NCBI RefSeq assembly: GCF_005047655.1
Contig: NZ_SUKF01000009.1
Location: forward strand, 186,001-250,000
Length of the DNA stretch: 64,000 nucleotides
Reading direction: 5' to 3'
Source: Sinimarinibacterium arenosum
Lineage (GTDB): Bacteria; Pseudomonadota; Gammaproteobacteria; Nevskiales; Nevskiaceae
The notes under the pieces: generated by a model
Database searches by the model: none
Told to the model about the DNA's origin: nothing
What the model saw: the letters and a program-made list of their open reading frames with translations, nothing else
Program-made: the position numbers and the translations under genes
In this document: positions 18,138-63,588 of the stretch, in pieces
Numbering within the stretch: position 1 is the first letter of the stretch
Layout of the letters: each line of letters starts with the position of its first letter

Positions 18138-18161
18138 GTGGGCAAACCGTGCGTCTACTGC
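18138..18161 (+). promoter_or_regulatory. Shared-class promoter: GTGGGC-N12-TACTGC
   Basis: It lies upstream of the SPFH gene at 18196 and includes GTGCGTCTA just before and into the -10-like box. It is nearly identical to the partition-operon promoter at 49259-49282. Confidence 0.55.
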
Positions 18162-18195
18162 GAACACACCATCGGGTGCAGATCCCTTGAACGCC

Positions 18196-19164
18196 ATGAC
18201 GCATCCCCCGACATTTCTGGTTCAGCAATCGCCGGCCGAGCAGGAGCCTGAGACGCCTGTTGCGGCAGCGACGGTGCCCCCTGTGGTCGCGGTCGAGCGG
18301 ACGCCCAGCATTGGCACGCGCGTCGCGCGCTATCTGCGCTCGGGCGGGGCACGCGGAGACTTCAGCTACTACCTTTCGCTGGTGCTGGTCTTGCTGGCGG
18401 TCGCGTGGTTCCTCTCGCATGCCTTGTTCACAGTGCCCTTGGGGACCGTGGGTGTGCGCACGGGCTTTGGGTCCAGCGCCGGTCAGGCGTTGGATCCGGG
18501 GCCGTATGTGGTCGTGCCAAAACTGAGCGAGATGCTGCTCTACTCGACCGAAGAGATTGAGTACCCGGTGCAGATTTCCGGATTGAAGGATGCCGCTGGG
18601 CTCCCGCTGGCCAGCGCGGAGGTGATGGTGGTGTACCGGGTGATGCGCAGCGCCGTAGATCAGGCGATCGCGCTGGAATTCTCTCCGGCACAGAATGCCA
18701 ACGGCATTCGGCTGCCGCTGGCCAACAAGATGGTCCGGGACATCCCGAGGATTCTCGGTGCATTCGTCGGCAAGCTGGATGTGGCCCAGCTGGCGGTGCT
18801 CGGCCCGCAGCTGGGGCCCTTGGTACAGGACGAGCTTCAGCAGGAACTGAACGCGTGGCTCCCCAAGGGGGTTCAGGTGGTCTCCATAACGGTGCCGCCG
18901 ATCCTCGAATACACCGAGCCCGAACCGGTCGCATCGGAGCCGGCAGGGCCGCAAACGGTCGCGCCGTCCGAAGCCTCGGCCGCCGAACCGGAGCCGGCGG
19001 CGCCCGCAGACGCAGCTCAACCGTCGTCAGTCCCCGCGGCCCCGCAGGGCGCGGCGGAGGTTCCCCAGCCCCCGGGGCCCGTTCCGGGCGCCATCGGAGT
19101 CAAGGCGGCGGACTCGTCCGTGAAGGGCAAATTGCCAGAAGCGGACGCCGGATTCGGCGGCTAG
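18196..19164 (+). CDS. SPFH/band-7 (HflC/prohibitin-like) membrane protein
   Basis: 322 residues from the ATG at 18196; the frame is open upstream, but the shared promoter lies inside that extension. An N-terminal cytoplasmic tail leads to a membrane helix at about residues 58-78 (YYLSLVLVLLAVAWFLSHAL). Next comes an SPFH domain opening FTVPLGTVGVRTGFG, with GPYVVVPKLSE and AEVMVVYRV, and ending with a long Pro/Ala-rich tail from about residue 250. This resembles HflK/HflC-type proteins found on some conjugative elements. It may help organise the envelope around the transfer apparatus, which is inference. Confidence 0.8.
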   Translation: MTHPPTFLVQQSPAEQEPETPVAAATVPPVVAVERTPSIGTRVARYLRSGGARGDFSYYLSLVLVLLAVAWFLSHALFTVPLGTVGVRTGFGSSAGQALDPGPYVVVPKLSEMLLYSTEEIEYPVQISGLKDAAGLPLASAEVMVVYRVMRSAVDQAIALEFSPAQNANGIRLPLANKMVRDIPRILGAFVGKLDVAQLAVLGPQLGPLVQDELQQELNAWLPKGVQVVSITVPPILEYTEPEPVASEPAGPQTVAPSEASAAEPEPAAPADAAQPSSVPAAPQGAAEVPQPPGPVPGAIGVKAADSSVKGKLPEADAGFGG

Positions 19165-19210
19165 GTTCGGCGTCACTGGCCAACCCTGTGCTCTAAGGCA
19201 GGACGGTAGC

Positions 19211-19234
19211 GGGGCGGTGCAGCACCCGTAGGGT
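19211..19234 (+). promoter_or_regulatory. Shared-class promoter: GGGGCG-N12-TAGGGT
   Basis: A perfect match to the class consensus, 36 bases before the start codon of the endonuclease gene at 19270. Confidence 0.65.
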
Positions 19235-19269
19235 GTGACTGTACCCACGCACCAGCACGGAGAGTTCTC

Positions 19270-19968
19270 ATGCGACGCTATGCACTACAGGCCTGCACCT
19301 TTATTTCCATTCTCTTGGCCGCCGCGACTGCCGGTGCCGCCGGCGGACTGGACTTCGAGACGGGAAAGAAGGTGATGTACGCCGTTCACAAGTCGCATCC
19401 CATCGATCTGTATTGCGGGTGTGCGTATCACGGCAAGTCGCTCGATGGCAGTTGCCCTGTGACGACCCCTTCCTATCGCGAGCGGTTACGGCGTGTTGAG
19501 GCGGAGCACATGGTTCCGGCGTCCGATTTCGGGCGTCAGCGGTCGTGCTGGCGCAGCGCGCCGAAGGGGACCAGCGGGCGAAATTACTGCCGGGAAGTGG
19601 ATCCGGACTTCCGCGCCATGGAAGGCGATCCGCATAACCTGTGGCCTGTGGTCGGCGCGCTCAACGCGACGCGGAGCAACTATCGCTTTGGCGAGGTTCC
19701 CGGCGAAGCGCGCAACTTCGGCCAGTGTGACTTTGAACTCTCGGCGGATGGGGCCGGGCACTTCGTTGAGCCGCCTGAGGCGGCCAAAGGCGTGGTCGCG
19801 CGGGCCTATTTCTACATGGAGCGCCAATACGGCCAGCGCATTTCCAAGTCACAGCGGCGCGTCCTGGAGTCCTGGGCACGCTCGCATCCGCCGACGGTGT
19901 TTGAAGTTGAGCGCGCCCGGGCGATTGAGCGGCTGACCGGATTGCACAACCCGATACTGACACCCTGA
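19270..19968 (+). CDS. Secreted endonuclease I (EndA/Vvn/Dns-type)
   Basis: 232 residues with a signal peptide (cleavage probably after the Ala-rich stretch near residue 23). It has the EndA pattern: YCGCAYH near the N-terminus, the catalytic region VEAEHMVPASDFG with the active-site His, and GDPHNLWPVVGALNATRSNY with the metal-binding Asn/Glu region. Several paired cysteines fit a periplasmic or extracellular nuclease. Members degrade DNA nonspecifically outside the cytoplasm. Carried by a conjugative element, it could limit uptake of other DNA or act on the cell surface during mating; both ideas are inference. Confidence 0.9.
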   Translation: MRRYALQACTFISILLAAATAGAAGGLDFETGKKVMYAVHKSHPIDLYCGCAYHGKSLDGSCPVTTPSYRERLRRVEAEHMVPASDFGRQRSCWRSAPKGTSGRNYCREVDPDFRAMEGDPHNLWPVVGALNATRSNYRFGEVPGEARNFGQCDFELSADGAGHFVEPPEAAKGVVARAYFYMERQYGQRISKSQRRVLESWARSHPPTVFEVERARAIERLTGLHNPILTP

Positions 19969-20018
19969 CCGCTGCGCAGTCTGCCTGCCGTCGGCGCCGC
20001 GCAGCGCGGCGTCGACGC

Positions 20019-20981: not shown

Positions 20982-21001
20982 AGCCGAACTCCAGGTGGTT
21001 A

Positions 21002-21654: not shown

Positions 21655-22899
21655 CTACAGCGCGTCGCAGGCCACCGCCGTCGCAGCATCGGCCCGCGGG
21701 AGCAGGCCGCTGTGCTGCATTTCACCGCGCGGATCGTGCAGGGAGATCCCCACGCCGTGACGCCGGCGCAGCAGCCGCAGCGTGCCTGCCGGCGTGGGCA
21801 GGTTCTGCACGCCCTGTCCGCGCAGCACCGCGCCCAGCGCGTCGACCAGCAGCGGCCAGGTCTGTGCGGGCAGCGACAGTCGCACCGGCGGCTGCGCCGG
21901 TCCGAACAGGATGTCCGGGCGCTGCAGCTGCACGCTGCCGGCGGCGCCGGCCTGGTCCGCTTCGCACTCCCGGTATTGTTCGCGATAGCGGTACAGATCC
22001 AGGCGCGGGATCAGCGGGTCGGACTCGCACCGGGCGTCGGAACGCGACGGCGCCTTGTTGCGCTGGACCACCAGGTCGCCGAGCTCGCGGATCGCGGGCC
22101 AGACGCCGGCGGCACCGGCCGGGAAGGCCAGCGGCAGGACCGCCTTAATCGGCTTTTCGGGGGTCTGGTCGAGCCACCAGTTGACCTCCGGGACGGGCTG
22201 CAGCGCGCGGCGGACCGCCAGCACTTCGTCATCCTGCAGTCCGGCGAGCGCGGCCATGTCCTCGGTCTGCATTTCCTGGCGCTGGCGCGCCGACAGCTCG
22301 AAGGCGCGGCCCAGCGAGGTCAGCACCAGCTCGCGGGCACGGCGCACGCTGAGGCGCTGGATCGAGACATTCTGGGACAGCCACGAGAACGAGACTTTCT
22401 CCGGGGCGCTGGCCAGCACCGGCACGCGCCGGTAGGCGTACAGCAGATTCACCCGCGCGTAGTCGGTGCGGATGCGCAAGGCCTTCCACTGCTTTTGCGT
22501 CAACGCGCTGGCACGCCTTTCAAACACGGCCTTGGCGGCATTGAGCGCTGTGAGCGTGTCGAGGGTGCTCGCCGAGCACGCCAGCACGCCGGGCAGTCGC
22601 TCCACCGCCTTGGGATGTTGCTCCTCGAGGTAGGTGAGCCGTGCCACCCCCTGGGCGATCACTTCCCGCGCCGGCGCGTCATACAGCGTCAGCACCTCGA
22701 TCCGGCTCGGCAGCGGGGTGTCTTTGCTGCGCGCCTCGACATGGGCGAGATAGGCCGGCAGTGCGGCATCGTCGTACAGGATCGCCCGGCGCGCGGCCGT
22801 GGCCGCGTCCGTCAGCGCCAGCCACGCCTCGCGCAGCATCAGCCGATCGCCGGCCGCGACCTCCGGAACATCGGGCAATCCCTGGAAGGACTCGTTCAT
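21655..22899 (-). CDS. tus: Tus-like DNA replication terminus site-binding protein
   Basis: 414 residues against 309 in E. coli Tus. The order of conserved blocks matches Tus: ERLPGVLACSASTL (RLPGVLCYQVDNL in Tus), AKAVFERRA (KTTFEHIV), NLLYAYRRVPVLASAP (LNAYRTLTVLHDP), VSFSWLSQN (LRFGWANKH), then PLIPRLDLYRYREQY. A C-terminal extension contains PVRLSLPAQTW. Tus binds Ter sites and blocks the replicative helicase from one side. The gene is divergent from a RecD-like gene and has a shared-class promoter at 22931-22953. A 15-bp repeat just downstream of that promoter sits where TerB lies in E. coli. Alignment is by eye from memory of Tus. Confidence 0.8.
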   Translation of the reverse strand: MNESFQGLPDVPEVAAGDRLMLREAWLALTDAATAARRAILYDDAALPAYLAHVEARSKDTPLPSRIEVLTLYDAPAREVIAQGVARLTYLEEQHPKAVERLPGVLACSASTLDTLTALNAAKAVFERRASALTQKQWKALRIRTDYARVNLLYAYRRVPVLASAPEKVSFSWLSQNVSIQRLSVRRARELVLTSLGRAFELSARQRQEMQTEDMAALAGLQDDEVLAVRRALQPVPEVNWWLDQTPEKPIKAVLPLAFPAGAAGVWPAIRELGDLVVQRNKAPSRSDARCESDPLIPRLDLYRYREQYRECEADQAGAAGSVQLQRPDILFGPAQPPVRLSLPAQTWPLLVDALGAVLRGQGVQNLPTPAGTLRLLRRRHGVGISLHDPRGEMQHSGLLPRADAATAVACDAL

Positions 22900-22916: not shown

Positions 22917-22931
22917 TTAAGTCATCATCTC
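22917..22931 (+). repeat. TTAAGTCATCATCTC, copy 1 of candidate Ter/operator
   Basis: It lies 18 bases upstream of the tus-like start codon, immediately downstream (in tus orientation) of its -10-like box. The related copies are at 22982 (same strand) and 23135 (opposite strand). The placement mirrors autoregulatory TerB next to E. coli tus. Confidence 0.55.
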
Positions 22932-22953
22932 TACTAGACGCACCCGCCGCCCG
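22931..22953 (-). promoter_or_regulatory. Shared-class promoter for tus: CGGGCG-N11-TAGTAG
   Basis: Minus strand; the segment just before and into the -10 reads GTGCGTCTAG, as in other members of the class. It abuts repeat copy 1, so a protein bound there would block initiation. Confidence 0.5.
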
Positions 22954-22981
22954 CCCCGCAACCACCCAAACCCCGTTTCCC

Positions 22982-23149: not shown

Positions 23150-23168
23150 ATGCTGGGTGGTGTCTGCC

Positions 23169-23191
23169 TGGGCGGGCGCTGCGTCTATAGG
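23169..23191 (+). promoter_or_regulatory. Shared-class promoter: TGGGCG-N11-TATAGG
   Basis: It lies upstream of the RecD-like gene and has GCTGCGTCTATAGG in common with the promoter at 27891. Its -10-like box ends three bases before the chosen ATG, implying a leaderless message or a slightly different true start. Confidence 0.6.
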
Positions 23192-23194
23192 GGA

Positions 23195-25390
23195 ATGAGC
23201 TCAGCCGCCCTCGCCAACGCCCCGCTCGACGGGGTCATTCTGTCGTCCTATCAGTCGTTGACCGGTCGCACCCTGGCCGTGGTCGAGGACCGGGCCGGGC
23301 ATCGTGCCTTTGCGATCGGGGAGGGGCTGAAGTGGGTCGCCGGTGAGCGGGTTGCGCTGCGCGGACGCTGGAGCGAGGGCGTCGGCGCGGGCCGCTGTCT
23401 GCTGGTGGACTCCCAGCGGGCCGTGGTCCCCACCGACATTGCCGGCTCGGCCGCCCAGCTGATGTCGGCGCTGTCCATCGACTTTGCCGGCGCCACCAAA
23501 CTGCTGTCGGCGTTCGGCAGCGACATCTTCGATGTGCTGGAACGCGGCGATGCCGAGCGCCTGGCCGACGCCAACTACTCGGGCCCGGAAGTGCGGCAGT
23601 TCCTCGAAAGCTGGCGCCGCTTCCGCTCGAACCAGTCGGCGCAGACCCTGCTCGACCGGCTCGGACTCAATGAGGCTCACCGGCAGACCCTGGCGCGCAT
23701 GCTGGGGTCGGAGACCGACCTCGATGTCGCGCTTCGCGATAACCCCTATCTGGCGGTGATCCACCTTCCCGGGGTCGACTGGAGCCACGCCGATGAACTC
23801 GGTCTGGAGCTGGGCGTCCCGCGCGACAGCGCCGAACGCCGCAAGGCGGCGGTGGTCGCCGCACTGCGTGGCCTCGGCGATGCCGGACACAGCTTCCTGC
23901 CCGCCCCAGTCCTGCAGACCGCCGCCAGCCGCCTGCTCGCGCTGTCGCCCAGCCAGACCGAGTGGGACAGCGCGCTGCAGCACCTGCGCTCCCGCCGCCT
24001 GATCGCCTTTGACGCCGACCGCGTCTACCTGCCCGAGGCCTTCGAGGATGCCGCCAATGCGGCCCGCGCGGTGCTGGACTGCGCCCGCGCCGCGTCGCTG
24101 AACGATCCGCCCGAGGACTTCGCCGCGATGGAGCGCGCGGTCAACCAAGCCGACTTCCGCTTGCCGCGGGCCCACTTCGACGTGCTCGCGCCGGCGCTCG
24201 GGCGCGCCCTGACCGCCATCGACGTCGTCGGTCACCCCACCGCCCAGCACCTCGCCGAATCCTTCGTGCGCATGTGTCAGGCCCTGCGCCTGGTGCCGGT
24301 GGTGCTGTGCCCCGCGTACTGGGTCGCCCAGGCGCTGCTGGAACGCTGCCCGGATGAGCGCATCGGGACCGCCGGCGCGCTGCTGGGCGTCAACGACCAG
24401 GGGGAACCGCTGTACGAGAACCTGGCCAGCCTGCAGCCCGACGCGGTCCTGGTCATCGGCGCCGAACGGCTGCCGATGCCGGCGCTGACCTATCTGCTGA
24501 CCCGCCGCACCGACGGCTGCGCCGTGATCCTGGCCGGCGATCCGGCCGCCGACATCGGCGTGGTCCGTGGCCGCCCGTTTGCCGAGCTGGCCCGCGCCGC
24601 CAGCGCCGCGTCACCGCCCCTCAAACTCGTGCCGCTGGGCATCGCCCCCGATCGCGACTCGCCGCTGGGCGCCGTCCGCGCGCTGCTGCGCAACCCCGCC
24701 GCCGCCTCCGCGCTGGTCGGTCGCTTCGACCTGCCGGTGTCCGTGCTGCAGCTGGGGGAGCCGGCCGACGCACTGACACGCTATGCCGCGGAGGTCCTGC
24801 CGAAACTCGGACTGGGCCCGGCGCCGGAACTGGTCTGCGTGACGCCCACGCGCTCGTCGTTGCCGCGGGCGATGTACGCGGTGCGCAACCTGCGCCGCAT
24901 CCTCAATCCCGATCACGCCAATACCGTCGGCGCCGTGGGCCGCACGCAGCTGGCGCCCGCCGATCCGTTCCTGGTCACCCGCGACCTGATCGACGGCCTC
25001 TACATTCCCGCCGGCACGCGGCTGCGCCTGATCACCGCGCACGACAGCAAAGGCCCGGTGGCGGCCTCGCTGGGCGGTCAGCGCATCCTGATCAGCGCCG
25101 ATCGCGTCAACGACATCCTGCAGGGCTATGTGCTGATCACCGCGCACATGCACTGGGAACGGGCGGACGTGGTCGTGCTGGCTGTCCCCGAAGGCGGCGA
25201 CGTGCCGCTGGGGGCGAGCGTGCTCTACACCATCGCCGCTTCGGCCACCCGCAAGCTGGTGCTGCTGGGCTCCCCCGATGACGTGCAACTCCTTCTGCGC
25301 CAGAGCGTCAAGGCGCCGTACTCCCTGTTCGAGTCGCTGTTGCATGACTTGCACGCCCAACGTCCACCGGAGGCGACCGCCGATGCCTAA
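23195..25390 (+). CDS. RecD2-like helicase homologue with degenerate ATPase motifs
   Basis: 731 residues from ATG 23195; an ATG at 23150 is possible but lies upstream of the promoter. The N-terminal 330 residues follow RecD2: an OB-like segment ending in RWSEG, helix-hairpin-helix repeats with KLLSAFGSDIFDVLERG and ERLADANYSGPEV, the NPYLAV box (about residue 182) and GHSFLPAPVL. The helicase part is recognisable but inactive by sequence. Motif I reads VVGHPTAQHLA with no GKT, motif II reads VLVIGAERLP with no DE, and motif III reads AGDPAADIG with no Gln. The C-terminal helicase-2 region survives as LITAHMHWERADVVVLAVPE. It overlaps the next small gene, which overlaps traD, so it is translated with the transfer genes. 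A structural or DNA-binding role is inferred. Confidence 0.75.
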   Translation: MSSAALANAPLDGVILSSYQSLTGRTLAVVEDRAGHRAFAIGEGLKWVAGERVALRGRWSEGVGAGRCLLVDSQRAVVPTDIAGSAAQLMSALSIDFAGATKLLSAFGSDIFDVLERGDAERLADANYSGPEVRQFLESWRRFRSNQSAQTLLDRLGLNEAHRQTLARMLGSETDLDVALRDNPYLAVIHLPGVDWSHADELGLELGVPRDSAERRKAAVVAALRGLGDAGHSFLPAPVLQTAASRLLALSPSQTEWDSALQHLRSRRLIAFDADRVYLPEAFEDAANAARAVLDCARAASLNDPPEDFAAMERAVNQADFRLPRAHFDVLAPALGRALTAIDVVGHPTAQHLAESFVRMCQALRLVPVVLCPAYWVAQALLERCPDERIGTAGALLGVNDQGEPLYENLASLQPDAVLVIGAERLPMPALTYLLTRRTDGCAVILAGDPAADIGVVRGRPFAELARAASAASPPLKLVPLGIAPDRDSPLGAVRALLRNPAAASALVGRFDLPVSVLQLGEPADALTRYAAEVLPKLGLGPAPELVCVTPTRSSLPRAMYAVRNLRRILNPDHANTVGAVGRTQLAPADPFLVTRDLIDGLYIPAGTRLRLITAHDSKGPVAASLGGQRILISADRVNDILQGYVLITAHMHWERADVVVLAVPEGGDVPLGASVLYTIAASATRKLVLLGSPDDVQLLLRQSVKAPYSLFESLLHDLHAQRPPEATADA

Positions 25391-27490: not shown

Positions 27491-27492
27491 TC

Positions 27493-27867: not shown

Positions 27868-27890
27868 CGCCTCGACCGTTTGCTCGTGAA

Positions 27891-27913
27891 TGGGCGAACG
27901 CTGCGTCTATAGG
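27891..27913 (+). promoter_or_regulatory. Shared-class promoter: TGGGCG-N11-TATAGG
   Basis: It precedes the RAQPRD-like gene by 20 bases and is the internal promoter for the pilus genes. It has CTGCGTCTATAGG in common with the RecD-like gene promoter. Confidence 0.6.
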
Positions 27914-27933
27914 AGCAACAGAAGGAGCTCCTG

Positions 27934-28332
27934 ATGCAAAAGATTGCCGCACTGCTGTTCGCGACCGCGCTTTGGCCGGGCCTGGCCGCCGCCGAGACCA
28001 TTGCCACGCTGCCGATGAATGGCCCTTATGGCACGGCCTACGCCGGACCTACGGTGCTCGATCAGCGTGACGCCGGATATCAGATGGCCCTCGAGCACGC
28101 CGCGAATGCGCAACGCGCTTTGCAGCGCGCGCTGGATGAGATGGCGCAGTCCCAAAGCCTCTACGCCTTCCCCGGCTTCCAGTATTCGGCGCTCGCGCGA
28201 GAGCTGACGCTCGCGCGGGATGCCGTGGCAGTGATGGTGACGCCAGAACAGCGTCGCCTTCGCTACCAAACCCTGACACCCGACGGCATGTACATGCGCG
28301 TGCCGGGTGCTGTCGCGTCCCCTACCAAGTAA
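27934..28332 (+). CDS. RAQPRD-like periplasmic conjugation protein
   Basis: 132 residues with a signal peptide (cleavage after LAAAE or just before it). The central part is helical, and the C-terminus (FQYSALARELTLARDAVAVM then LTPDGMYMR) resembles the end of the ICE protein family named RAQPRD, although the RAQPRD residues themselves are replaced by EQRRLRY. The family is known only as a conserved part of GI-type conjugation systems. Position just before the pilin agrees. Confidence 0.5.
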   Translation: MQKIAALLFATALWPGLAAAETIATLPMNGPYGTAYAGPTVLDQRDAGYQMALEHAANAQRALQRALDEMAQSQSLYAFPGFQYSALARELTLARDAVAVMVTPEQRRLRYQTLTPDGMYMRVPGAVASPTK

Positions 28333-29192: not shown

Positions 29193-29804
29193 ATGAGCGA
29201 TCTATCCAAACGTGGCGAAGGCTGGACACTCTGGGCGTCCCAGCAGATGGAAATCGAGCGCGAGCGACGTAACAAGATTGTGATGGGTGGCGTGGCGCTT
29301 TTCATCGGGGTGGTCGCATCCCTGTACATCGGCCACCAGAACAAGCGCATCGACTATCTGACCGCGAATCGCCAGATGTACTGCGAGAACAGCGGGGTCG
29401 GTTTGTACCGGTCCACGGCCAAGCGTCCCCAAGAAATGGTGACGCGCTATGCCCGCGAGTACCTGAACAATCTGAAGCAGTTCGACCAGCGCAGCGCCAA
29501 GATCAACTTCGAGCGCGCGCTGTCCATGATGTCTCCCGATGTGGCGGCGGCGACGCGGCCCACACTCGAGGCGCAGATCGAAACCGTGCGCAAGCAGTCG
29601 CTCTCGCAATGGATCACGGTCACCACTGAAGACGTCACCGAAGACGCCTCTACCTACACCTATACCGCGACCGCGAAAGTGGGGGGCCATACGGGCACCA
29701 CGCCACTGCCGACCGGCGTGGCGAAGGTGACGGTTGTGCTCCGAAAAATCGCGCCGAGCGATTCCCGTCCGGAAGGCCTGATGGTGGTTGAGAGTCGCGG
29801 TTAA
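29193..29804 (+). CDS. traE: TraE-like protein (VirB8-like)
   Basis: 203 residues. A short cytoplasmic N-terminus leads to one membrane helix near residues 29-48 (VMGGVALFIGVVASLYIG), then a periplasmic domain with MVTRYAREYLNNLKQFD and repeated beta strands (STYTYTATAKVGG, VTVVLRKI). This matches TraE/VirB8-type periplasmic domains. It is placed between traL and traK. Confidence 0.8.
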   Translation: MSDLSKRGEGWTLWASQQMEIERERRNKIVMGGVALFIGVVASLYIGHQNKRIDYLTANRQMYCENSGVGLYRSTAKRPQEMVTRYAREYLNNLKQFDQRSAKINFERALSMMSPDVAAATRPTLEAQIETVRKQSLSQWITVTTEDVTEDASTYTYTATAKVGGHTGTTPLPTGVAKVTVVLRKIAPSDSRPEGLMVVESRG

Positions 29805-29820
29805 GTCGCGCGTCTATAAC
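29797..29820 (+). promoter_or_regulatory. Weak shared-class promoter: GCGGTT-N12-TATAAC
   Basis: The -10-like part, CGCGTCTATAAC, fits the class but the upstream box is poor. It lies 29 bases before the GTG start of traK. Confidence 0.35.
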
Positions 29821-29849
29821 GACAAGCTCTGGCGGATTGAACAGACATC

Positions 29850-38339: not shown

Positions 38340-38363
38340 CTGGCGTGGAGCGCCGTCTAAGGC
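38340..38363 (+). promoter_or_regulatory. Shared-class promoter: CTGGCG-N12-TAAGGC
   Basis: It lies 16 bases before the thioredoxin-like gene, with GCCGTCTAAGG at the -10, close to GCCGTCTAAAGG at 60778. Confidence 0.5.
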
Positions 38364-38379
38364 TGCAAAGGAGTCATCT

Positions 38380-43138: not shown

Positions 43139-43183
43139 ACGCTAAGTGACTAACTTCAGGCGCGCGGCGTCGTATTCTTGGGC

Positions 43184-44651: not shown

Positions 44652-44710
44652 CACCCCCCAAACAATGGCTAAGTGACTAACTTCCGCTGGGGGTCGTCGT
44701 ATCCTTGGGC

Positions 44711-48315: not shown

Positions 48316-49256
48316 GTTTCCGGTTCCATTTTGATTCGATGTAGTGCAGCCACCGCGCGTGCAGTGGCCTTGAGCGTGCTCGTGTAACTGCGACGGCGGA
48401 CGCGAAGCATCGTGATTTCGGCCGCCAGCCTTCCGATTTCGTCTGGGTTCTTGTTGTACTTGGCGCGCTCCAGCTCGCGACTTGAGATGGGGTTTTCGTC
48501 TGGGCCCTTGGGCGAAGTCATTCGCGCCATGCGGCGTCCCCCCAGTCCTGCAGTGGCCATAAAGAAGGTCGGTCCCGCCGGGCCGCTGAACGGCCCAACT
48601 GCTTTCTCAGAAACTTCCCACCGGCACACAATCGAAACCCTGGGACGTTTGGTGAGCTGATTGAACCGCTGCATCATTTCGTCGAGTTCGCGATCGATCA
48701 GCTCCAGGGCTTCACCCGCTTCGCGGACCATCGTGGCAACGTCAGAGATCAGCGCGGCGCGGTAACGGGCCGTGACTGCGGGGCTCGGTTGGGGGCCCGG
48801 AATCGAAGCCACCTCCGCGCGACGCACCAGGGGGACGAGGTTACGCATTGCTTCGCGCGCAGCGCTCCGAATCGCCAGGTAGTCCGTCAGGCGTTCGAGG
48901 GCGGCCGACTGGAAGGGGAGGAACGCCGGGGTGGTGTACCTCGGCAGATACCGGACCTGGGGCCGCCGCATCCGTTCACGTCTCCCGTCTGCGTGCACGA
49001 CATACCAGTCAACACCAGCCGGTCCCAAGGCGCGGTCGGCCGGCATCTCCCCCCAATACACACGCAGGCTCCTGCCAAGGACGTGCCTTGCTGGGTGATT
49101 GAACTGGCGCATCAGCTCATCAATCTCCCAGTCCACCGCATCGAGGTGGCGGCCGACGTACCGGATCACGTCCTCCAGATTGGTGATCGTATCGGCACGC
49201 CGGCGCCGCAACTCCTCGCGGAGTTCAAGGTAGGCGTTGAGTTTGGGATTCTCCAT
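48312..49256 (-). CDS. Unknown protein with internal duplication, first gene of the par operon
   Basis: 314 residues from ATG 49256. The protein consists of two similar halves. Half 1 has AVDWEIDELMRQFNHPAR followed by RVYWGE and GPAGVDWYV; half 2 has LIDRELDEMMQRFNQLTKRP followed by VCRWEVSE and GPAGPTFFM. Both units end in a basic helical stretch. I do not recognise the family. Because it is co-transcribed and overlaps parM, it may be an extra partition factor such as a second centromere-binding or filament-regulating protein; this is inference. A shared-class promoter lies directly upstream. Confidence 0.6.
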   Translation of the reverse strand: MENPKLNAYLELREELRRRRADTITNLEDVIRYVGRHLDAVDWEIDELMRQFNHPARHVLGRSLRVYWGEMPADRALGPAGVDWYVVHADGRRERMRRPQVRYLPRYTTPAFLPFQSAALERLTDYLAIRSAAREAMRNLVPLVRRAEVASIPGPQPSPAVTARYRAALISDVATMVREAGEALELIDRELDEMMQRFNQLTKRPRVSIVCRWEVSEKAVGPFSGPAGPTFFMATAGLGGRRMARMTSPKGPDENPISSRELERAKYNKNPDEIGRLAAEITMLRVRRRSYTSTLKATARAVAALHRIKMEPET

Positions 49257-49258
49257 GC

Positions 49259-49282
49259 TCGATAGACGCACGGATTGCCCAC
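49259..49282 (-). promoter_or_regulatory. Shared-class promoter for the par operon: GTGGGC-N12-TATCGA
   Basis: Minus strand. The stretch GTGGGCAATCCGTGCGTCTA is almost the same as at 18138 (GTGGGCAAACCGTGCGTCTA). The -10-like box ends two bases before the ATG, so the transcript may be leaderless. Confidence 0.55.
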
Positions 49283-51434: not shown

Positions 51435-51458
51435 GCGGGCATGCACGACGTCTAAAGC
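51435..51458 (+). promoter_or_regulatory. Shared-class promoter: GCGGGC-N12-TAAAGC
   Basis: It lies 23 bases before the primase gene, with GACGTCTAAAG at the -10. Confidence 0.5.
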
Positions 51459-51481
51459 TCGTCTACACAGAACGAGCCCCG

Positions 51482-53862: not shown

Positions 53863-54182
53863 TGACAATGCTTCACTTGCGCGTGCCGATCCGACCGGTG
53901 ACTTCACATCTGGCCCCACACGTCTTTCCTCACATTTCTCACTGTTCCCGGTTGCGTTCCTACAGCGGTTTTCCGAGGAGACAGGTCACGGTCGGCCGGG
54001 CGCCGCTGGACCGGCCAACATCCGGCGCCTTGCTCGGGCGGTGCCGGGTTTCCGCCCCCTGCGGGGGCTTCCGCGCCTTCGGCGCATGCAGTGCATATCG
54101 CGACGTCGCGGTGTGACTTTGATCGCCATCGCGCGTCACGCTCCGACTGGCGACGGTCCGGCGCGTCTCGCGTGGCATTGCG
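53863..54182. other. Gene-free interval
   Basis: About 320 bases between the inverted repeat and the promoter at 54183. ORFs on both strands are short and GC-driven, with no ribosome sites or recognisable products. I see no repeats other than runs such as GGCGCCGCTGG. Confidence 0.4.
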
Positions 54183-54205
54183 GGGGACGCTGCCGTCGGT
54201 AGGGT
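54183..54205 (+). promoter_or_regulatory. Shared-class promoter: GGGGAC-N11-TAGGGT
   Basis: It lies 27 bases before the gene at 54233 and is the first of a run of ten or more such sites in the 54-64 kb block. Confidence 0.6.
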
Positions 54206-54232
54206 GGGCCTGTACCTCGCACCGAGCCTCAA

Positions 54233-54664: not shown

Positions 54665-54677
54665 CACCCCAAGTCGT

Positions 54678-54702
54678 GGGGCGCATATCCGCTGCATAGG
54701 GT
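54678..54702 (+). promoter_or_regulatory. Shared-class promoter: GGGGCG-N13-TAGGGT
   Basis: It lies 36 bases before the gene at 54739. Confidence 0.6.
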
Positions 54703-54738
54703 GGTTACAGGCCCACCCAATCGGATGTTTGACACCCC

Positions 54739-55203
54739 ATGGAATACGCGATGACGAAGGCGGAAGCGGCAGCCCGCACAGCGTTTGACCCTGCCTCCGA
54801 GCAAGTAGCACGCTGCATGGTTGAGGTTGATCTGGCACTCGACCGCACCCGGCGCAGTGTTCGGCGCGCGTTGGGCGCGCTGCTTTGGTCCCCGGTGGAG
54901 ATTGAATTGTTCCGTCGCCTGTCGGCCCCCAATGGGCGGCTGGTGGTGTACGTCAACGGGCGCCCCGAATCGAGCTTTGAGCCGGAGTTTGTCCTTGATC
55001 CGCAGGGACGCTCGCGCGGCGAGACGGCGCCCATCATCGCCGCGTTTGGCGGTGGGGTAGGCGGCGAGTCCCGCCTGCGCGAGTTCTATCGCCTTGCGCG
55101 CACCTATGAGGCGATCGGTGGATTGGTCGTCGGCGGTAGTCCGTGCCGTCTATTCCCACAGGTCTTTGTCACTCGTGAGTGCGGGGCTCTCGAAGCGGCA
55201 TAG
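54739..55203 (+). CDS. Unknown 154-aa protein
   Basis: ATG 54739 is used; ATG 54751 is an alternative. A helical N-terminus (EVDLALDRTRRSVRRALGAL) leads to a domain with NGRLVVYVNGRPESSFEP and a Gly-rich turn (GGGVGGES). No family is recognised. The stop codon TAG is the first three bases of the next promoter's TAGGGT box. Confidence 0.5.
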   Translation: MEYAMTKAEAAARTAFDPASEQVARCMVEVDLALDRTRRSVRRALGALLWSPVEIELFRRLSAPNGRLVVYVNGRPESSFEPEFVLDPQGRSRGETAPIIAAFGGGVGGESRLREFYRLARTYEAIGGLVVGGSPCRLFPQVFVTRECGALEAA

Positions 55204-55206
55204 GGT
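55183..55206 (+). promoter_or_regulatory. Shared-class promoter: GGGGCT-N12-TAGGGT
   Basis: It overlaps the end of the gene at 54739 and lies 34 bases before nrdJa. Confidence 0.6.
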
Positions 55207-55240
55207 AGTCACATACCACGCAATTCCACGGAGCAGAACG

Positions 55241-57316
55241 ATGAAGCAGCGCCCTTCGACCCGCCTGGCTGATCTGATCCCGATGCAGGAGGCATCGGAC
55301 CTGATCGCCAAAACGAAGTATTACGTTGGCAAAGAGTCCAGCGTCGCTGACCTGCGCAAGCGCGTCGCCGCCGCGCTGGCCGCACCGGAGTCTGATCCTG
55401 ACGCCCATTTAGCCTCCTTCGAGTGGGCGCTCCAGTACGCTTTCCCCGGTGGGCGTGTGATGGCCAACGCAGGTGCCGGGGCGTTTCGCCCTGCGACCTC
55501 TACGATCAACTGCACGGTGTCGCAAACCATCCGCGATTCGATGGGCGGCATCATGGAGGCACTGTCGCACGCCGCTATTACCCTCAAAGGGGGCTCGGGT
55601 ATCGGGTATGACTTTACGACGATCCGACCGCGTGGCGCTCGTGTAGCCGGTGCCGGTGCGAGCACGAGCGGCATCCTGCCGTTCATGGACATGTTCGATG
55701 CCATGTGCAAAACGGTGTCGAGTGCCGGTGGCCGCCGTGGCGCTCAGATGGGCGTGCTGGAAGTGTCACATCCCGACATTGAGGACTTCATCAAGGCCAA
55801 GCGCGAGAATGGCCGGCTACGGGCGTTCAATCTCTCGGTCAATGTCACCCGCGCATTCATCGACGCTGCCAACGCGGGCGACGACTGGCCGCTGGTGTTC
55901 CCGTTGCTTCCGGGCGAGTCGGAATCCGACATCGTGTGGCGCGACTGGCCGGTCATTGAGCCTGAGTATCGTGTAAACGCGCTGGGCGAGGTGGCGTGCC
56001 GGGTTTACCGTCGCGTGTCGGCTCGTGATCTGCGCAACCTGATTGAAGGCTCGACCTACGAGTTCAGCGACCCCGGCTATCTGCTGTTGGACGAAGCGAA
56101 CCGCATGAACCCGCTGTGGTTCGCGGAAAACCTTCGCGCGACCAATCCCTGCGCCGAACAGTTTCTCCCCCCTGAGGGCAGCTGCTTGCTGGGGTCCGTT
56201 AACCTTGCGGCTCTGGTCCAGAACCCGTTCACCCCCGAAGCGCGCTTCGATTACGAAACGTTCGCGAAAGTCGTTTTCATTTTCGCCCGCATGCTGGACA
56301 ACGTCGTCGAAATCAACGGGCTGCCGCTTGAAGGCCAGCGCCGTGAGATTCAGAGCAAGCGTCGGCATGGCATGGGGTATCTGGGCTTGGGGTCGGCGCT
56401 GACGATGATGGGCATCCGCTACGGCTCCCCCGAGTCTGTGGCGTTCACGAATGACGTCACCCGCGAGCTGGCACTCAACAACTGGCGCGCTGGGCTGGCG
56501 CTGGCCAAGGAAAAGGGTGCGGCTCCGATCCTGACGGAGAACTTCGTCATTACCCCGAAGATGCTGCGCCAACGTCCCGAGCTGGCTGCGGACGGCTACA
56601 AGGCCGGCGACACCTTGCCGGGCCGCGTGTTGCATGCGAAGTATTCCGTATACATGCAGCAGATCGCGCAGGCTGACCCTGAGCTGGTCGCAGAGCTTGC
56701 AGAGCACGGCTCTCGCTTCACCCATGCGACGTCGATCGCTCCGACCGGCACCATGGCCGCATCGGTGGGCAACAACGCGAGCAACGGCATCGAGCCGAGC
56801 TTCGCGCACTCCTACATCCGCAACATGATCGTCGAGGGCGAAAAGACCAAGCGGGCGATTCGCATGGAGTCTTACGAGCTGTTGGCCTATCGCAAGCTGG
56901 TCGACGCAAACGTCGACCCCGACAACCTGCCGGAGCTGTTCGAAGCGTCTGCGAAGAACGTTACGCCGGCAGAGCACATCGCGGTGCAGGCGGCAGCGCA
57001 GCGGTGGATTGATAGCGCGATCAGCAAGACCACCAACTGCGACACCGACATGCCGTTCGCGGAGTTCCAGGGTCTCTATCAGCTGGCGATTGACAGCGGC
57101 CTCAAAGGTTGCACCACGTTCCGCTTCAATCCCGAGGTCCACATGGGCGTGCTGGTGGAAAAGAAAGATCTGGACGCGACGGTGATCGAATTCAAGCTGG
57201 ATGACGGCAGCACCATTCGTGGGGCGGCCTCGCAGAAAGTACGGTACGACAACGCCGAAACAACCATCGGCAATCTGTATGAAGCCCTCAAGGAAGGGCA
57301 GTACGGCAAGCACTAA
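55241..57316 (+). CDS. nrdJa: Adenosylcobalamin-dependent ribonucleotide reductase, large part (NrdJa)
   Basis: 691 residues from ATG 55241. Class II signatures are present: STINCTVSQT with the first redox Cys, GGSGIGYDFTTIRPRGA, ATNPCAEQFLPPEGSCLLGS with the catalytic N-C-E triad, SIAPTGTMA, and the second redox Cys in LKGCTTFRFNP. The usual C-terminal zinc/TSCPD domain is absent because it is encoded by the next gene, as in split pseudomonad NrdJa/NrdJb enzymes. It makes deoxynucleotides with or without oxygen, using vitamin B12 coenzyme. Carrying it could supply dNTPs during establishment. Confidence 0.93.
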   Translation: MKQRPSTRLADLIPMQEASDLIAKTKYYVGKESSVADLRKRVAAALAAPESDPDAHLASFEWALQYAFPGGRVMANAGAGAFRPATSTINCTVSQTIRDSMGGIMEALSHAAITLKGGSGIGYDFTTIRPRGARVAGAGASTSGILPFMDMFDAMCKTVSSAGGRRGAQMGVLEVSHPDIEDFIKAKRENGRLRAFNLSVNVTRAFIDAANAGDDWPLVFPLLPGESESDIVWRDWPVIEPEYRVNALGEVACRVYRRVSARDLRNLIEGSTYEFSDPGYLLLDEANRMNPLWFAENLRATNPCAEQFLPPEGSCLLGSVNLAALVQNPFTPEARFDYETFAKVVFIFARMLDNVVEINGLPLEGQRREIQSKRRHGMGYLGLGSALTMMGIRYGSPESVAFTNDVTRELALNNWRAGLALAKEKGAAPILTENFVITPKMLRQRPELAADGYKAGDTLPGRVLHAKYSVYMQQIAQADPELVAELAEHGSRFTHATSIAPTGTMAASVGNNASNGIEPSFAHSYIRNMIVEGEKTKRAIRMESYELLAYRKLVDANVDPDNLPELFEASAKNVTPAEHIAVQAAAQRWIDSAISKTTNCDTDMPFAEFQGLYQLAIDSGLKGCTTFRFNPEVHMGVLVEKKDLDATVIEFKLDDGSTIRGAASQKVRYDNAETTIGNLYEALKEGQYGKH

Positions 57317-58771: not shown

Positions 58772-58784
58772 GCGCCTACGGCAC

Positions 58785-58809
58785 GGGGCGCGAGGTCGCT
58801 GCGTAGGGT
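58785..58809 (+). promoter_or_regulatory. Shared-class promoter: GGGGCG-N13-TAGGGT
   Basis: It lies 27 bases before the gene at 58837. Confidence 0.6.
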
Positions 58810-58836
58810 GAAGGCTCTTCCACACGGAATGCCCCA

Positions 58837-59450: not shown

Positions 59451-59473
59451 GGACACGACTCGCGGCGCTGAGC

Positions 59474-59497
59474 GGGGCCCCTGCCGGTGGGTAGAGT
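59474..59497 (+). promoter_or_regulatory. Shared-class promoter: GGGGCC-N12-TAGAGT
   Basis: It lies 32 bases before the gene at 59530. Confidence 0.55.
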
Positions 59498-59529
59498 TGA
59501 AGCTCAGACACCACGCACAGGAGCACCCC

Positions 59530-59799: not shown

Positions 59800-59936
59800 C
59801 AGTCTGCTGCGGGGCACGTGGTTGCGGTCCGCCACGCAGCCCCCGCCGAAGCGCGCGGCGCCCCGTCCTCGACTGTACCGCCCTGACTCTCTGCGGTGCC
59901 GACGCTTCGGGGCGGCGACTTAGTCACTTGGCGAGC

Positions 59937-59960
59937 GGGGCGGACTTTGCCGCATAGGGT
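59937..59960 (+). promoter_or_regulatory. Shared-class promoter: GGGGCG-N12-TAGGGT
   Basis: It lies 25 bases before the gene at 59986 and has CTTAGTCACTTG immediately upstream. Confidence 0.65.
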
Positions 59961-59985
59961 GGAGACATCGCCCACGGAGAGTTCC

Positions 59986-60243: not shown

Positions 60244-60250
60244 CGCTGGC

Positions 60251-60274
60251 GGGGCGTGTGCCGCCGCATAGCTT
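60251..60274 (+). promoter_or_regulatory. Shared-class promoter: GGGGCG-N12-TAGCTT
   Basis: It lies 41 bases before the gene at 60316. Confidence 0.55.
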
Positions 60275-60315
60275 GGTGATGTACCCCCTTCATTCGCAGT
60301 CAGCCCGGAGTTCCC

Positions 60316-60756: not shown

Positions 60757-60764
60757 CCACGTGA

Positions 60765-60788: not shown

Positions 60789-60815
60789 CCATTGCCGCCC
60801 TACGCTGAGGTCTCC

Positions 60816-61349
60816 ATGGCCCCCATTCACTCCCTGCTGCTTGGCGCTGGTGCCGTTGGTGCTGCGCTTGCTCTTGCCAGTGGCGCTCCGACAACCTTCG
60901 GGGAGTGGGTCGCGATGGTGGGACTCGGAAGCGTCGGCGGGGGTGGCGTCGTCGCCGGGGCGTTTGCGCTCAAGCCTCGCCGGCGCCGTCGTCGGCGTGC
61001 GACGTCGGGCTCGCGTGAGTGCGTCGAGCGCGCCGCACGTCGGGTGGACACGCTGGCCGCGCGGCTGGAGGTGGCGGCGGTCGAACTCCGACGCCGATCG
61101 GAGAGCATGCGCAAGCGCCAGAGCATCGCCGAGGCGGTCGGCACCGTCGGAGTGGTGGTCGCGGCGCTCCGGATCGGAGGGGCTGCGCAATCGGTGGCCG
61201 ATGAACTGGCAACGCTGGGCGTCACGCCCGCACGACCGGACGGCGGTGGGCGCACGCGGCTCGCGGGGCAGTCCCCCAGCGGTAGGGTGGAATCTCACCG
61301 ACACGCCGCAGACGATCATGAAATTCCTCCTTTCCTTCGCGCCCGCTGA
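60816..61349 (+). CDS. Membrane-associated protein, unknown
   Basis: 177 residues from ATG 60816. Hydrophobic Gly/Ala/Val-rich segments (residues 5-24 and 30-50) are followed by an Arg-rich stretch (PRRRRRRRA), a helix (RRVDTLAARLEVAAVELRRR) and another hydrophobic segment. The last 30 codons overlap the next gene and contain its promoter, so the true C-terminus is functionally unconstrained. Confidence 0.4.
   Translation: MAPIHSLLLGAGAVGAALALASGAPTTFGEWVAMVGLGSVGGGGVVAGAFALKPRRRRRRRATSGSRECVERAARRVDTLAARLEVAAVELRRRSESMRKRQSIAEAVGTVGVVVAALRIGGAAQSVADELATLGVTPARPDGGGRTRLAGQSPSGRVESHRHAADDHEIPPFLRAR
61265..61288 (+). promoter_or_regulatory. Shared-class promoter: GGGGCA-N12-TAGGGT
   Basis: It lies 29 bases before the gene at 61318, inside the 3' end of the gene at 60816. 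Confidence 0.6.
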
Positions 61350-61695: not shown

Positions 61696-61712
61696 GACCC
61701 CCGGAGGCGGGA

Positions 61713-62246: not shown

Positions 62247-62569
62247 ACAACGATCTTGTGTCGCGCCTGCTGTCTGATGCGGTGGAGGACTCCGCCGCCC
62301 TGCGCCGTGAGGCGGCCGAGGCCCTGCAGCAGATGGCCGCGCGGTTCACGCGGCTCGACGCACCGCGCTACAGCAACGACCCGATGCTTGATGCCGTGCT
62401 CGCTGTCCCGTCCGAGCGGTTCCGTGCGCGTGTCCAGGCGCTGCCGGCGACGTACTGGGCCCGCTACGACTTGAGCGCAGTGCGGATCGGCTACGAGCTC
62501 GGATTGGCCGAGGTTGCGCTCGGAGAAGCGTTGCCGATGCAAAAATTGATCGGGGCGGGGCGCGCGTAG
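62243..62569 (+). CDS. Unknown 108-aa helical protein
   Basis: It overlaps the previous stop (ATGA). An Ala/Glu-rich helix (RREAAEALQQMAARFTRLDA) is followed by LPATYWARYDLSAVRIGYEL. No family is recognised. Confidence 0.45.
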   Translation: MNNDLVSRLLSDAVEDSAALRREAAEALQQMAARFTRLDAPRYSNDPMLDAVLAVPSERFRARVQALPATYWARYDLSAVRIGYELGLAEVALGEALPMQKLIGAGRA

Positions 62570-62580
62570 GTCGGTACGGT
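62557..62580 (+). promoter_or_regulatory. Shared-class promoter: GGGGCG-N12-TACGGT
   Basis: It lies 21 bases before the gene at 62602 and overlaps the end of the preceding gene. Confidence 0.55.
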
Positions 62581-62601
62581 GGAGTGACACCGGAGACTTC
62601 C

Positions 62602-62931
62602 ATGCACGTCCTTGAACACCACAGCGCCCTTGTCACCTCGATCCTTGAGCACGCCGGCTGGACGGTCCGGGCGGGTGCGACCTTCGCGACGAAGCACTTC
62701 GCGACCGTGGTTGGCGACAAGGCCGCGTCCCTGCTCATGCTCGGAACCCGCAGCGTGCGCGGCGACTTCAGCAGCGAAGGCCTGAACGTGCTGGGCGGAC
62801 GGCCGCTGCTCCTTCCAGAAGACGCGAACGCTCAACAGGTCGCGGAACAGGTCGCCGGCTTCCTCACGGAGGCCGAGGCCCTGATTGTCGACTCGTGGAC
62901 CGTGCGCGTCGGACCGCTCGGGGGCCGCTGA
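62602..62931 (+). CDS. Unknown 109-aa protein
   Basis: Begins MHVLEHHSALVTSILEHAGW; the middle is SLLMLGTRSVRGDF and the end has AEQVAGFLTEAEALIVDSWT. It is a small globular protein with no known family. GGAG precedes the ATG. Confidence 0.5.
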   Translation: MHVLEHHSALVTSILEHAGWTVRAGATFATKHFATVVGDKAASLLMLGTRSVRGDFSSEGLNVLGGRPLLLPEDANAQQVAEQVAGFLTEAEALIVDSWTVRVGPLGGR

Positions 62932-62939
62932 GGCGCTCA

Positions 62940-62963
62940 GGGTGCAACTTCGGTGTCTATTGC
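62940..62963 (+). promoter_or_regulatory. Shared-class promoter: GGGTGC-N12-TATTGC
   Basis: It lies 36 bases before the GTG start at 63000; GGTGTCTATT at the -10 resembles CGTCTATAGG of other members. Confidence 0.45.
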
Positions 62964-62999
62964 CGGGATAGCCCCCGGCGCCTACATGAGGAGAAGCGT

Positions 63000-63212
63000 G
63001 TGTCTCTCGAACAATACCGCGTCGCACGCGACCATTTCGAGGTGGATGAGGCGTCGGCCGCTCAGCTGGCGTTCCCCTGCAACGTCTGCCGCCACCGGCA
63101 CGGCAGCGACCGCGCGGAGCCGTGTCGCAGCTGCGACCACAACGCGAACGCGGTGCCGGCACCGACGCATCTGGAACGACTGCTTGCGGCGGGCCGGGCA
63201 CTGGACTGGTAG
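63000..63212 (+). CDS. Small zinc-ribbon-like protein
   Basis: 70 residues from a GTG preceded by GAGGAGAA. Two CxxC pairs (FPCNVCRHRHG and EPCRSCDHN) 15 residues apart look like a zinc ribbon. The N-terminus is helical (LEQYRVARDHFEVDEASA). It may bind nucleic acid or act as a protein adaptor. Confidence 0.5.
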   Translation: MSLEQYRVARDHFEVDEASAAQLAFPCNVCRHRHGSDRAEPCRSCDHNANAVPAPTHLERLLAAGRALDW

Positions 63213-63265
63213 CCCCGAGGTCGCGACCTGCATTCCCCTACCCCCTCTTTCGACGGAATCCCTGT

Positions 63266-63502
63266 ATGAACCTGACATCCTCCGAGCCCACGTGGACCCA
63301 GCGGGTCAAGCTCGGCGTGCAACTCGGCAAGTCGCTGGAGACGGTGTGCTCGCTGGACGAAATCGCGGCCGAACTGGGGGTCTCGCGGCAGACGGCCTAC
63401 AACGAGTGTGCGGCGGCTCTCGGGGCGCTGGCGTGGCGGCTGCGCGCGCGCTATTCGGCGCCTCCCGGGTCGACGTCGGAATCCCCGGTGCTGCGGAGCT
63501 AG
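63266..63502 (+). CDS. Small HTH protein
   Basis: 78 residues. A clear helix-turn-helix is present: SLDEIAAELGVSRQTAYNEC, in the middle of the protein, with basic residues around it. It is probably a DNA-binding regulator. The start lacks a good ribosome site. The stop TAG is part of GCTAGTCACTTG. Confidence 0.55.
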   Translation: MNLTSSEPTWTQRVKLGVQLGKSLETVCSLDEIAAELGVSRQTAYNECAAALGALAWRLRARYSAPPGSTSESPVLRS

Positions 63503-63562
63503 TCACTTGCCGCGGGGCACTTGCGGGCTCTCTCGTCCTTGACGGCAGGGCGGTGGGTCTGC

Positions 63563-63588
63563 GGGGTCGCGCGCGCCGCCTATAGGGT
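63563..63588 (+). promoter_or_regulatory. Shared-class promoter: GGGGTC-N14-TAGGGT (or N12 to TATAGG)
   Basis: It lies 74 bases before the last gene of the window, leaving a longer leader than at other sites. Confidence 0.55.

Follow-up and report, generated by a model that had tools for sequence, protein, structure and literature searches.

The expression of genes on plasmids is commonly taken to rely on promoters of the host. A stretch of 64,000 nucleotides from Sinimarinibacterium arenosum (hereafter the window; positions 186001-250000 of contig NZ_SUKF01000009.1, here C24) carries a recurring GC-rich two-box element ahead of many genes, and the question raised by this locus is what that element does and which protein would read it. 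An earlier note on the window had described about 20 sites as one promoter class with a GGGGCG-like box abnormally close to a TAGGGT-like box. Our analyses revealed two motifs, class A (TWGCGGGGCG-N10/11-TGCGTA[GC]GGTGGAnnCAT) and class B (an element around CGTCTA with an upstream CGGG-like box), and led us to consider class A as probably a set of promoters read by a plasmid-encoded sigma-70-family factor whose gene, C24:119624-120673 (minus strand), lies outside the window.

The window seems to be part of a large conjugative plasmid. C24, one of the 24 contigs of a 4.54-Mb genome, is 267,883 bases long, and because its two ends overlap by 117 bases we handled it as a circular plasmid of ~267.8 kb, as the contig seems to be. 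Genes were called on joined stretches of C24 with a simple custom caller, on which gene starts and start distances depend, giving 307 genes with 270 on the plus strand. For comparison we used 20 stretches of the host chromosome of 20 kb each (400 kb in total), a related plasmid of Flagellatimonas centrodinii (NZ_CP092105, 146.6 kb) together with 400 kb of the chromosome of that species, and a Rhodanobacter plasmid that has in common with C24 a 39%-identical helicase.

To describe class A we used a two-box matrix trained from seed matches and then iterated, which at a score of at least 14 found 101 sites on C24 (92 on the plus strand, 9 on the minus strand). The 400 kb from the host chromosome had none, and five random sequences matched to C24 in length and dinucleotide frequencies had 28 between them, or ~6 per copy. 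The strict pattern GGGGC-N13-TA[GC]GGTG placed 36 of its 36 matches in the 4.54-Mb genome on C24, where the reversed-pattern control gave 0; in the 84 other genomes of the order it matched 0-4 times each, about equal to reversed controls, and use of the C24-type pattern elsewhere in the order was accordingly rejected. A seedless comparison of regions upstream of C24 genes with those upstream of chromosomal genes returned GTAGGG, CGTAGG, CGGGGC, TAGGGT, TACGGT and CGTCTA as its top six 6-mers. The core TA[GC]GGT was also strongly oriented on C24, with 69 of 219 upstream regions holding it in the direction of the gene and 3 in the opposite direction, whereas 242 chromosomal upstream regions held it 5 times in each. 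These random-sequence and chromosome controls reject a chance origin. A general upstream bias of large plasmids was rejected as well, as the 14 top upstream 6- and 7-mers of the Rhodanobacter plasmid were mainly ribosome-binding-site-like, with CACCAC besides, and included no class A or class B word. The host chromosome does not seem to use class A as a gene-start signal.

Within the window the full matrix found 14 sites at this cut-off, and one of these, at 19025 on the minus strand, falls within a called gene, away from any start, and is probably a chance match (the others are in Table 1). A matrix built from 51 plasmid sites outside the window recovered 12 window sites at score 14, that at 19025 included, with those at 22938 and 60269 absent even from its score-12 list; in 20 random sequences sharing the window's dinucleotide frequencies it averaged 0.45 matches and never exceeded 2, and the host-chromosome set of 400 kb gave none. 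Controls of the kind proposed in the earlier note, here random sequences, gave far fewer matches than the plasmid at both scales. The sites described there do exist, and 11 of its 20 positions (19229, 54200, 54697, 55201, 58804, 59492, 59955, 60269, 61284, 62575 and 22936) are class A. Their assignment to a single class did not survive, as the other nine have no class A match at a score of at least 9, and seven of these carry CGTCTA, 62958 carries TGTCTA and 63583 carries neither. What had been read as two -10 subclasses of one motif are really two motifs, GGGGC-N13-TA[GC]GGT and CGTCTA, each enriched before genes. Also mistaken was the impression that the first 17.5 kb hold no sites, where class A occurs at 9347 and 12825, and the sites continue far outside the window.

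The alignment of the 101 sites provided an explanation for the spacing. The gap between the opening G of GGGG and the T that opens the -10 box measures 18 at 71 sites and 19 at the other 30. Conservation begins four bases before the GGGGCG box, weakly on C24 (T at the first two hexamer positions in 48 and 38 of the 101) and strictly on the F. centrodinii plasmid, such that the hexamer is TTGCGG and the spacer to TAGGGT is 16 or 17. The spacing had looked abnormal, at 12, because the start of GGGGCG/GGGG was taken as the hexamer, and the whole upstream box on both plasmids rejects abnormal spacing as a property in itself. The -10 box is G-rich, with G at position 5 in 97 of the 101 sites, and C and A are preferred 11 and 12 bases past its first T (56 and 57 of the 101). 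With the A of this CA as +1, TA[GC]GGT spans -12 to -7, the upstream box spans roughly -34 to -26, and the most conserved block, GCGGGGC, falls at -32 to -26 and extends beyond a normal -35 hexamer.

The placement of the sites relative to genes points to promoters. As the earlier note had observed, they usually stand 25-50 base pairs (bp) before a start codon, which holds for 68 of the 100 class A sites with a downstream start (against 2.6% of plus-strand positions), and 6 of the 101 lie inside called genes. An ATG some 13-21 bases past the first T of the -10 box would allow no room in the leader for a ribosome-binding site, but an ATG exactly 12 bases past it would make the mRNA leaderless; at all four class A sites with a called start less than 22 bp away, the ATG lies exactly 12 bases from that T. 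Likewise, wherever the called start of a class B site is 6-21 bases away (eight sites, four on each plasmid), it lies 12 or 13 bases from the C of CGTCTA. These close starts support both classes as promoters independently of base composition. The promoter role proposed for class A is a well-supported prediction, built on gene-proximal position, orientation, one-base spacer flexibility, A at -11 and T at -7, placement of ATG on the predicted start, and recurrence on a second plasmid, and we infer that transcription initiates at these sites.

Two other functions were weighed against the same observations. Operators of a plasmid-wide repressor or nucleoid protein sitting on promoters, for which the stoperators of mycobacteriophage L5 offer a comparison, could also be numerous, asymmetric, similarly oriented and confined to one replicon as these sites are, but two boxes with a one-base variable spacing, the -11A/-7T bases and the four out of four ATGs on the predicted start fit a promoter better, and we regard operators as very unlikely. 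Single-stranded-DNA promoters, of which Frpo of the F plasmid is the type, might serve early leading-region transcription during conjugation, and most class A sites are indeed on one strand, with many leading small genes of unknown function. However, the strand bias follows that of the genes, and an alignment of 71 sites gave no conserved hairpin for either strand (RNAalifold 0.0, the same as for shuffled columns, which makes this a blunt test). The mean folding z of the sites was -0.24 and -0.04 against base shuffles. An Frpo-type hairpin presenting the -35 and -10 boxes was thus rejected, leaving promoters of this kind with almost no probability in our estimation.

The class A sites are unevenly distributed, with 89 of the 101 in an arc that starts at 240 kb, passes across the contig ends and stops at 110 kb. 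Where the gap upstream of a plus-strand gene is 60 bp or more, a class A site stands 8-75 bp before the gene in 55 of 97 cases in the arc versus 4 of 54 elsewhere, and for genes with a shorter gap these numbers are 14 of 64 and 2 of 55. Genes led by class A include those for ribonucleotide reductase, a helicase-methylase and counterparts of the PRTRC ParB and ThiF genes, as well as the plasmid RecA gene, which lies outside the arc; among nine class A-led genes of the window searched against Pfam at E 0.001, seven had no match. A near-identical class A promoter with its downstream leader was also seen four times near the contig end (C24:264539-267883 and C24:1-100), with the last copy reappearing at the contig start through the terminal overlap.

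Evaluating the related plasmid further, we asked which parts of class A are kept there. The F. centrodinii plasmid was the top plasmid match to the C24 TraD protein (65%), synteny with C24 is broad and includes F-type transfer, ParM, primase, PRTRC and recA genes, and the plasmid carries both motif classes, although with fewer class A sites and a looser -10 box (nAnnnT). GCGGGGC, a word defined on C24, stands 40-75 bp before starts at 12 of its 49 occurrences on this plasmid (0.9 expected) and at 2 of 135 on the F. centrodinii chromosome (2.0 expected). A longer word picked from class A matrix matches in the F. centrodinii plasmid, TTGCGGGG, is likewise placed 40-75 bp before starts at 12 of 22 occurrences on that plasmid (0.4 expected) and at 13 of 23 on C24, compared with 0 of 14 on the F. 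centrodinii chromosome, 0 of 10 on the host chromosome and 0 of 6 on the Rhodanobacter plasmid; the 400 kb of F. centrodinii chromosome has neither motif class. When 13 F. centrodinii sites were aligned solely on T[TG]GCGGGG, A appeared at -11 in 11 and T at -7 in 9 with the spacing unchanged, from which it follows that the upstream box, the spacing and two core -10 bases have been kept and the rest of the -10 box differs.

A strict upstream box with a loose -10 box, mainly -11A and -7T, is also what one would see for an activator acting with a weak -10, and the GCGGGGC block reaches past the normal -35 hexamer. It is therefore conceivable that host sigma-70 polymerase is appropriated by a plasmid activator bound at about -30 on GCGGGGC, with no new sigma factor involved. 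Sigma appropriation of this sort is known from phage T4, where MotA and AsiA act at middle promoters; there too the -35 gives way to a conserved box with its centre close to -30, and a -10 box follows ~12 bp on. C24 differs from T4 in having a sigma-family gene on the plasmid and a -10 box that is not TATAAT. Since the C24 -10 box is itself specific and G-rich, unlike TATAAT, we favour a dedicated sigma factor over an activator on sigma-70, and the box distance also varies by one base; no activator candidate was identified, although none was systematically sought. Appropriation is, in our judgment, rather unlikely.

The candidate for a dedicated factor is the 349-amino-acid divergent sigma-70-family protein of C24:119624-120673, which has a counterpart on the F. 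centrodinii plasmid. Both match Pfam Sigma70_r2 (29.7 bits for the C24 protein and 38.1 for the F. centrodinii protein, cut-off 24), and of the 10 such matches in the S. arenosum genome, that of the 349-residue protein is the only one on C24. The two sigma genes occupy syntenic positions, each adjoining a short gene and the plasmid recA, and the proteins are 27% identical in alignment. A profile of the family matched three host sigma factors (RpoD-, FliA- and RpoH-like by our own reading) through regions 2-4 with an hhalign probability of 95.4%, and the F. centrodinii protein exceeds the cut-off of the NCBI sigma superfamily model TIGR02937 (46.6 bits, cut-off 42.9). At E 1e-8 a two-sequence profile found the family in 2 of 85 genomes of the order, those of S. 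arenosum and F. centrodinii, with no other member; the absence from the remaining 83 is the informative part, because both matches are the profile's own training rows. Plasmid searches found nothing with the C24 protein and, with the F. centrodinii protein, nothing other than itself. On C24 a class A site (score 18.5) stands 33 bp before the sigma gene. Elsewhere, a 756-residue open frame at C24:56023-58293, outside the window, has a sigma region 4-like stretch above the Pfam cut-off (29.0 bits), and a 78-residue helix-turn-helix protein in the window (63266-63502, plus strand) has weak similarity to several helix-turn-helix families, including sigma region 4.

We infer that this sigma factor and class A belong together, which suggests how the system may work. 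The plasmid sigma would join host core RNA polymerase, its region 4 recognising TWGCGGGGC (roughly -34 to -26, substituting for a -35 hexamer) and its region 2 recognising TA[GC]GGT (-12 to -7), and transcription would begin at the A of the CA(T) that lies 12 bases past the T opening the -10 box. The ~90-100 promoters, which lie mostly in one 138-kb arc, would then drive many small genes, ribonucleotide reductase, the helicase, PRTRC genes and plasmid RecA, with the transfer, partition and primase genes presumably under class B instead. If true, this would show how a conjugative plasmid keeps its expression independent of the host it has entered, and would provide a GC-rich orthogonal sigma-promoter pair in Gammaproteobacteria; as the promoter boxes differ in detail between the two plasmids, each should match its own sigma factor.

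Several observations weigh against this pairing. For the protein, TIGR02937 scores it at 37.4 bits, under the cut-off of 42.9 (aligned over 12-165 of 165), Pfam finds no region 4 match in it, and its AlphaFold model has a mean predicted local distance difference test (pLDDT) score of 52.7, too poor for claims about its fold. For the link between motif and sigma factor, the evidence comes from two plasmids that have many other genes in common, and the co-occurrence is thin because the looser box was scored in five sequence sets and one further contig (of genome G082, described below). Among the listed occurrences of TTGCGGGG, none lies before the F. centrodinii sigma gene; TA[GC]GGT, found before genes at 65 of 136 occurrences on C24, is so placed at 1 of 57 on the F. 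centrodinii plasmid, where the -10 box differs; and across 74 best-hit gene pairs, class A (19 genes on C24, 11 on the F. centrodinii plasmid) coincides in 5, P = 0.14. In addition, the boundary of the arc was set after the sites had been seen. Several of our P values are nominal and post hoc.

The second motif proved similarly plasmid-specific. Of the 85 occurrences of CGTCTA on C24, 36 stand 8-65 bp before a start (2.8 expected), and the F. centrodinii plasmid has 15 of 42 so placed (1.3 expected). The two chromosomes gave 2 of 58 and 3 of 77, and the Rhodanobacter plasmid 0 of 39. A GGG is found 9-14 bases upstream of these pre-start occurrences in 16 of 36 on C24 and 13 of 15 on the F. centrodinii plasmid, compared with 2 of 49 and 4 of 27 for the other occurrences, and in the F. 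centrodinii plasmid the consensus is about CGGGTC-N7-CGTCTAA. In the window, the transfer genes (~25-43 kb) carry class B in place of class A. Among the 74 gene pairs, class B precedes 12 genes on C24 and 10 on the F. centrodinii plasmid, with both members in 7 (Fisher P = 4.3e-5; pairs are best BLAST hits, some with a common partner, [CG]GTCTA was allowed in F. centrodinii, and no multiple-test correction was applied). Class B, judged from its different upstream box and mostly different gene sets, is a second plasmid-specific motif separate from class A. Eight genes across both plasmids are seemingly leaderless, with ATG 12-13 bases after CGTCTA, and four of them make two best-hit pairs that keep this arrangement. 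The class B site at 23168-23195 is outside our class B counts because the caller set the gene start at 23150.

A candidate second plasmid sigma is the sigma-like protein encoded at 50662-51432 of the window. It has a 29% relative at the equivalent place in the F. centrodinii plasmid, and its homolog on a contig of G082, a genome from another family of the order, reaches 26.0 bits for Sigma70_r4_2 (cut-off 25.7). The window protein itself has no Pfam sigma match and an hhalign probability of 9.2% against the host sigma factors, and Foldseek on its low-confidence model found nothing at E 0.001 (best E 0.079, with the top rows mostly sigma chains). We conjecture that this protein might read class B. 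Extending this, it is possible, though we hold it as a tentative idea, that two plasmid sigmas divide the genome, one reading the ~100 class A promoters, most of which lie in the 138-kb maintenance and accessory arc, and the other the class B promoters, some of them leaderless, of transfer, partition and replication genes; plasmid transcription would in that case be largely free of host sigma factors and need host core polymerase alone.

The pairing could also be the reverse, with the 50662-51432 protein reading class A and the C24:119624-120673 factor reading class B or something else, as both proteins have counterparts on the F. centrodinii plasmid and no computed result assigns either factor to a motif. 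Set against this is the G082 contig, which has the 50662-51432 homolog, yet in its upstream windows GCGGGGC was found in 0 of 13 cases, TTGCGGGG in 0 of 2 and CGTCTA in 0 of 18 (counts from a 42.8-kb contig), and the 119624 family was not found in G082 at E 1e-8. The argument is weak because the contig is so short, and it equally disfavours pairing 50662-51432 with class B. Of 13 TA[GC]GGT occurrences on the contig, 2 lie in the upstream windows (0.3 expected). Overall we think the reversed assignment improbable, and continue to favour the 119624-120673 factor as the likely reader of class A. The same G082 contig (contig 12) has a related transfer cluster in which, by eye, a different repeated pre-gene element, CCCCTTTnTAGGGG-like, can be seen; it is perhaps the class B counterpart.

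Searches for further plasmids of this kind returned few relatives. A near-identity plasmid search with 25 kb found none; TraD was found in S. arenosum, F. centrodinii and G082 alone among 85 genomes of the order, at one locus in genome_contigs (on a 42,816-base contig), and not in viral_contigs; and the helicase matched one short fragment in viral_contigs and, among 369 genomes of the class at E 1e-60, its own genome only. In the literature covered (titles and abstract openings, with most subscription journals outside the scope), we found no description of the plasmid family or the motif, and PMC9045368, in the passages covered, is not about a plasmid-wide sigma factor.

The nearest precedent would be SigN (ZpdN) of the Bacillus subtilis plasmid pBS32, and C24 may represent the same kind of arrangement in another phylum. 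According to PMC6751061, SigN is a plasmid-encoded sigma-70-family factor with a predominantly plasmid-confined regulon and positive feedback, for which 19 promoters are listed (17 with fold changes and 2 predicted) that are AT-rich and mostly measured. The systems would be alike in a plasmid sigma with a plasmid-confined regulon (on C24, the class is restricted to the plasmid as judged from sequence), many promoters, nucleotide-metabolism targets and perhaps, on C24, the factor's own gene in the regulon. C24 differs in having ~100 GC-rich sites, about five times more, in lying in a gammaproteobacterium, in its F-type transfer genes and second motif, and in that its regulon is predicted from sequence.

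Table 1. Predicted class A and class B sites and the candidate second sigma gene, by position in the window.
Feature	Position	Strand	Details
Class A promoter	9325..9359	+	-10 TAGGGT at 9347, score 27.7, gap 18
Class A promoter, weak	12802..12837	+	-10 TACGGT at 12825, score 15.6, gap 19
Class A promoter	19207..19241	+	Score 24.9; before endonuclease I family gene 19270-19968 (Pfam Endonuclease_1)
Class A upstream box	22926..22961	-	Score 21.6, gap 19; TCTAGT -10 overlapping CGTCTA; before Ter-like gene 21655-22899
Class A promoter	54178..54212	+	Score 25.3
Class A promoter	54674..54709	+	Score 26.5, gap 19
Class A promoter	55179..55213	+	Score 26.2; before ribonucleotide reductase gene 55241-57316 (Pfam Ribonuc_red_lgC, 368 bits)
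Class A promoter	58781..58816	+	Score 28.9, gap 19
Class A promoter, TAGAGT	59470..59504	+	Score 24.6
Class A promoter	59933..59967	+	Score 32.8
Class A promoter, TAGCTT, weak	60247..60281	+	Score 16.4
Class A promoter	61261..61295	+	Score 26.6
Class A promoter, TACGGT	62553..62587	+	Score 30.6
Class B site	17015..17042	+	CGTCTA at 17029
Class B site	18138..18165	+	CGTCTA at 18152; before Band_7/SPFH gene
Class B site	23168..23195	+	CGTCTATAGG at 23182; in-frame ATG at 23195 (leaderless if true start)
Class B site	27890..27917	+	CGTCTATAGG at 27904; before 27934-28332 in transfer gene cluster, whose F. centrodinii best-hit partner also has [CG]GTCTA
Class B site	29797..29824	+	At 29811, within transfer gene cluster; [CG]GTCTA also precedes F. 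centrodinii partner gene
Class B site	38340..38367	+	At 38354
Class B site	49255..49282	-	At 49268; called ATG of parM-adjacent gene at +12; F. centrodinii partner has equal arrangement, ATG at +13
Class B site	51435..51462	+	At 51449; before Toprim-domain gene 51482-52798
Sigma-like protein, 256 amino acids, candidate second plasmid sigma	50662..51432	+	TIGR02937 E 1.6e-4, 21.3 bits, below cut-off 42.9

Other features of the window were observed along the way. Beside the transfer genes, the minus-strand gene at 21655-22899 encodes a replication terminus protein resembling Ter/Tus (Pfam Ter, 53.6 bits) that has a counterpart in the F. centrodinii plasmid. By eye, the gene pairs at 43178-44651 and 44705-46205 encode similar proteins and resemble a tandem duplication, and four similar small proteins (4294-4974, 5055-5729, 7184-7825 and 7989-8675) have a GWL-RF-CF-like stretch in common.

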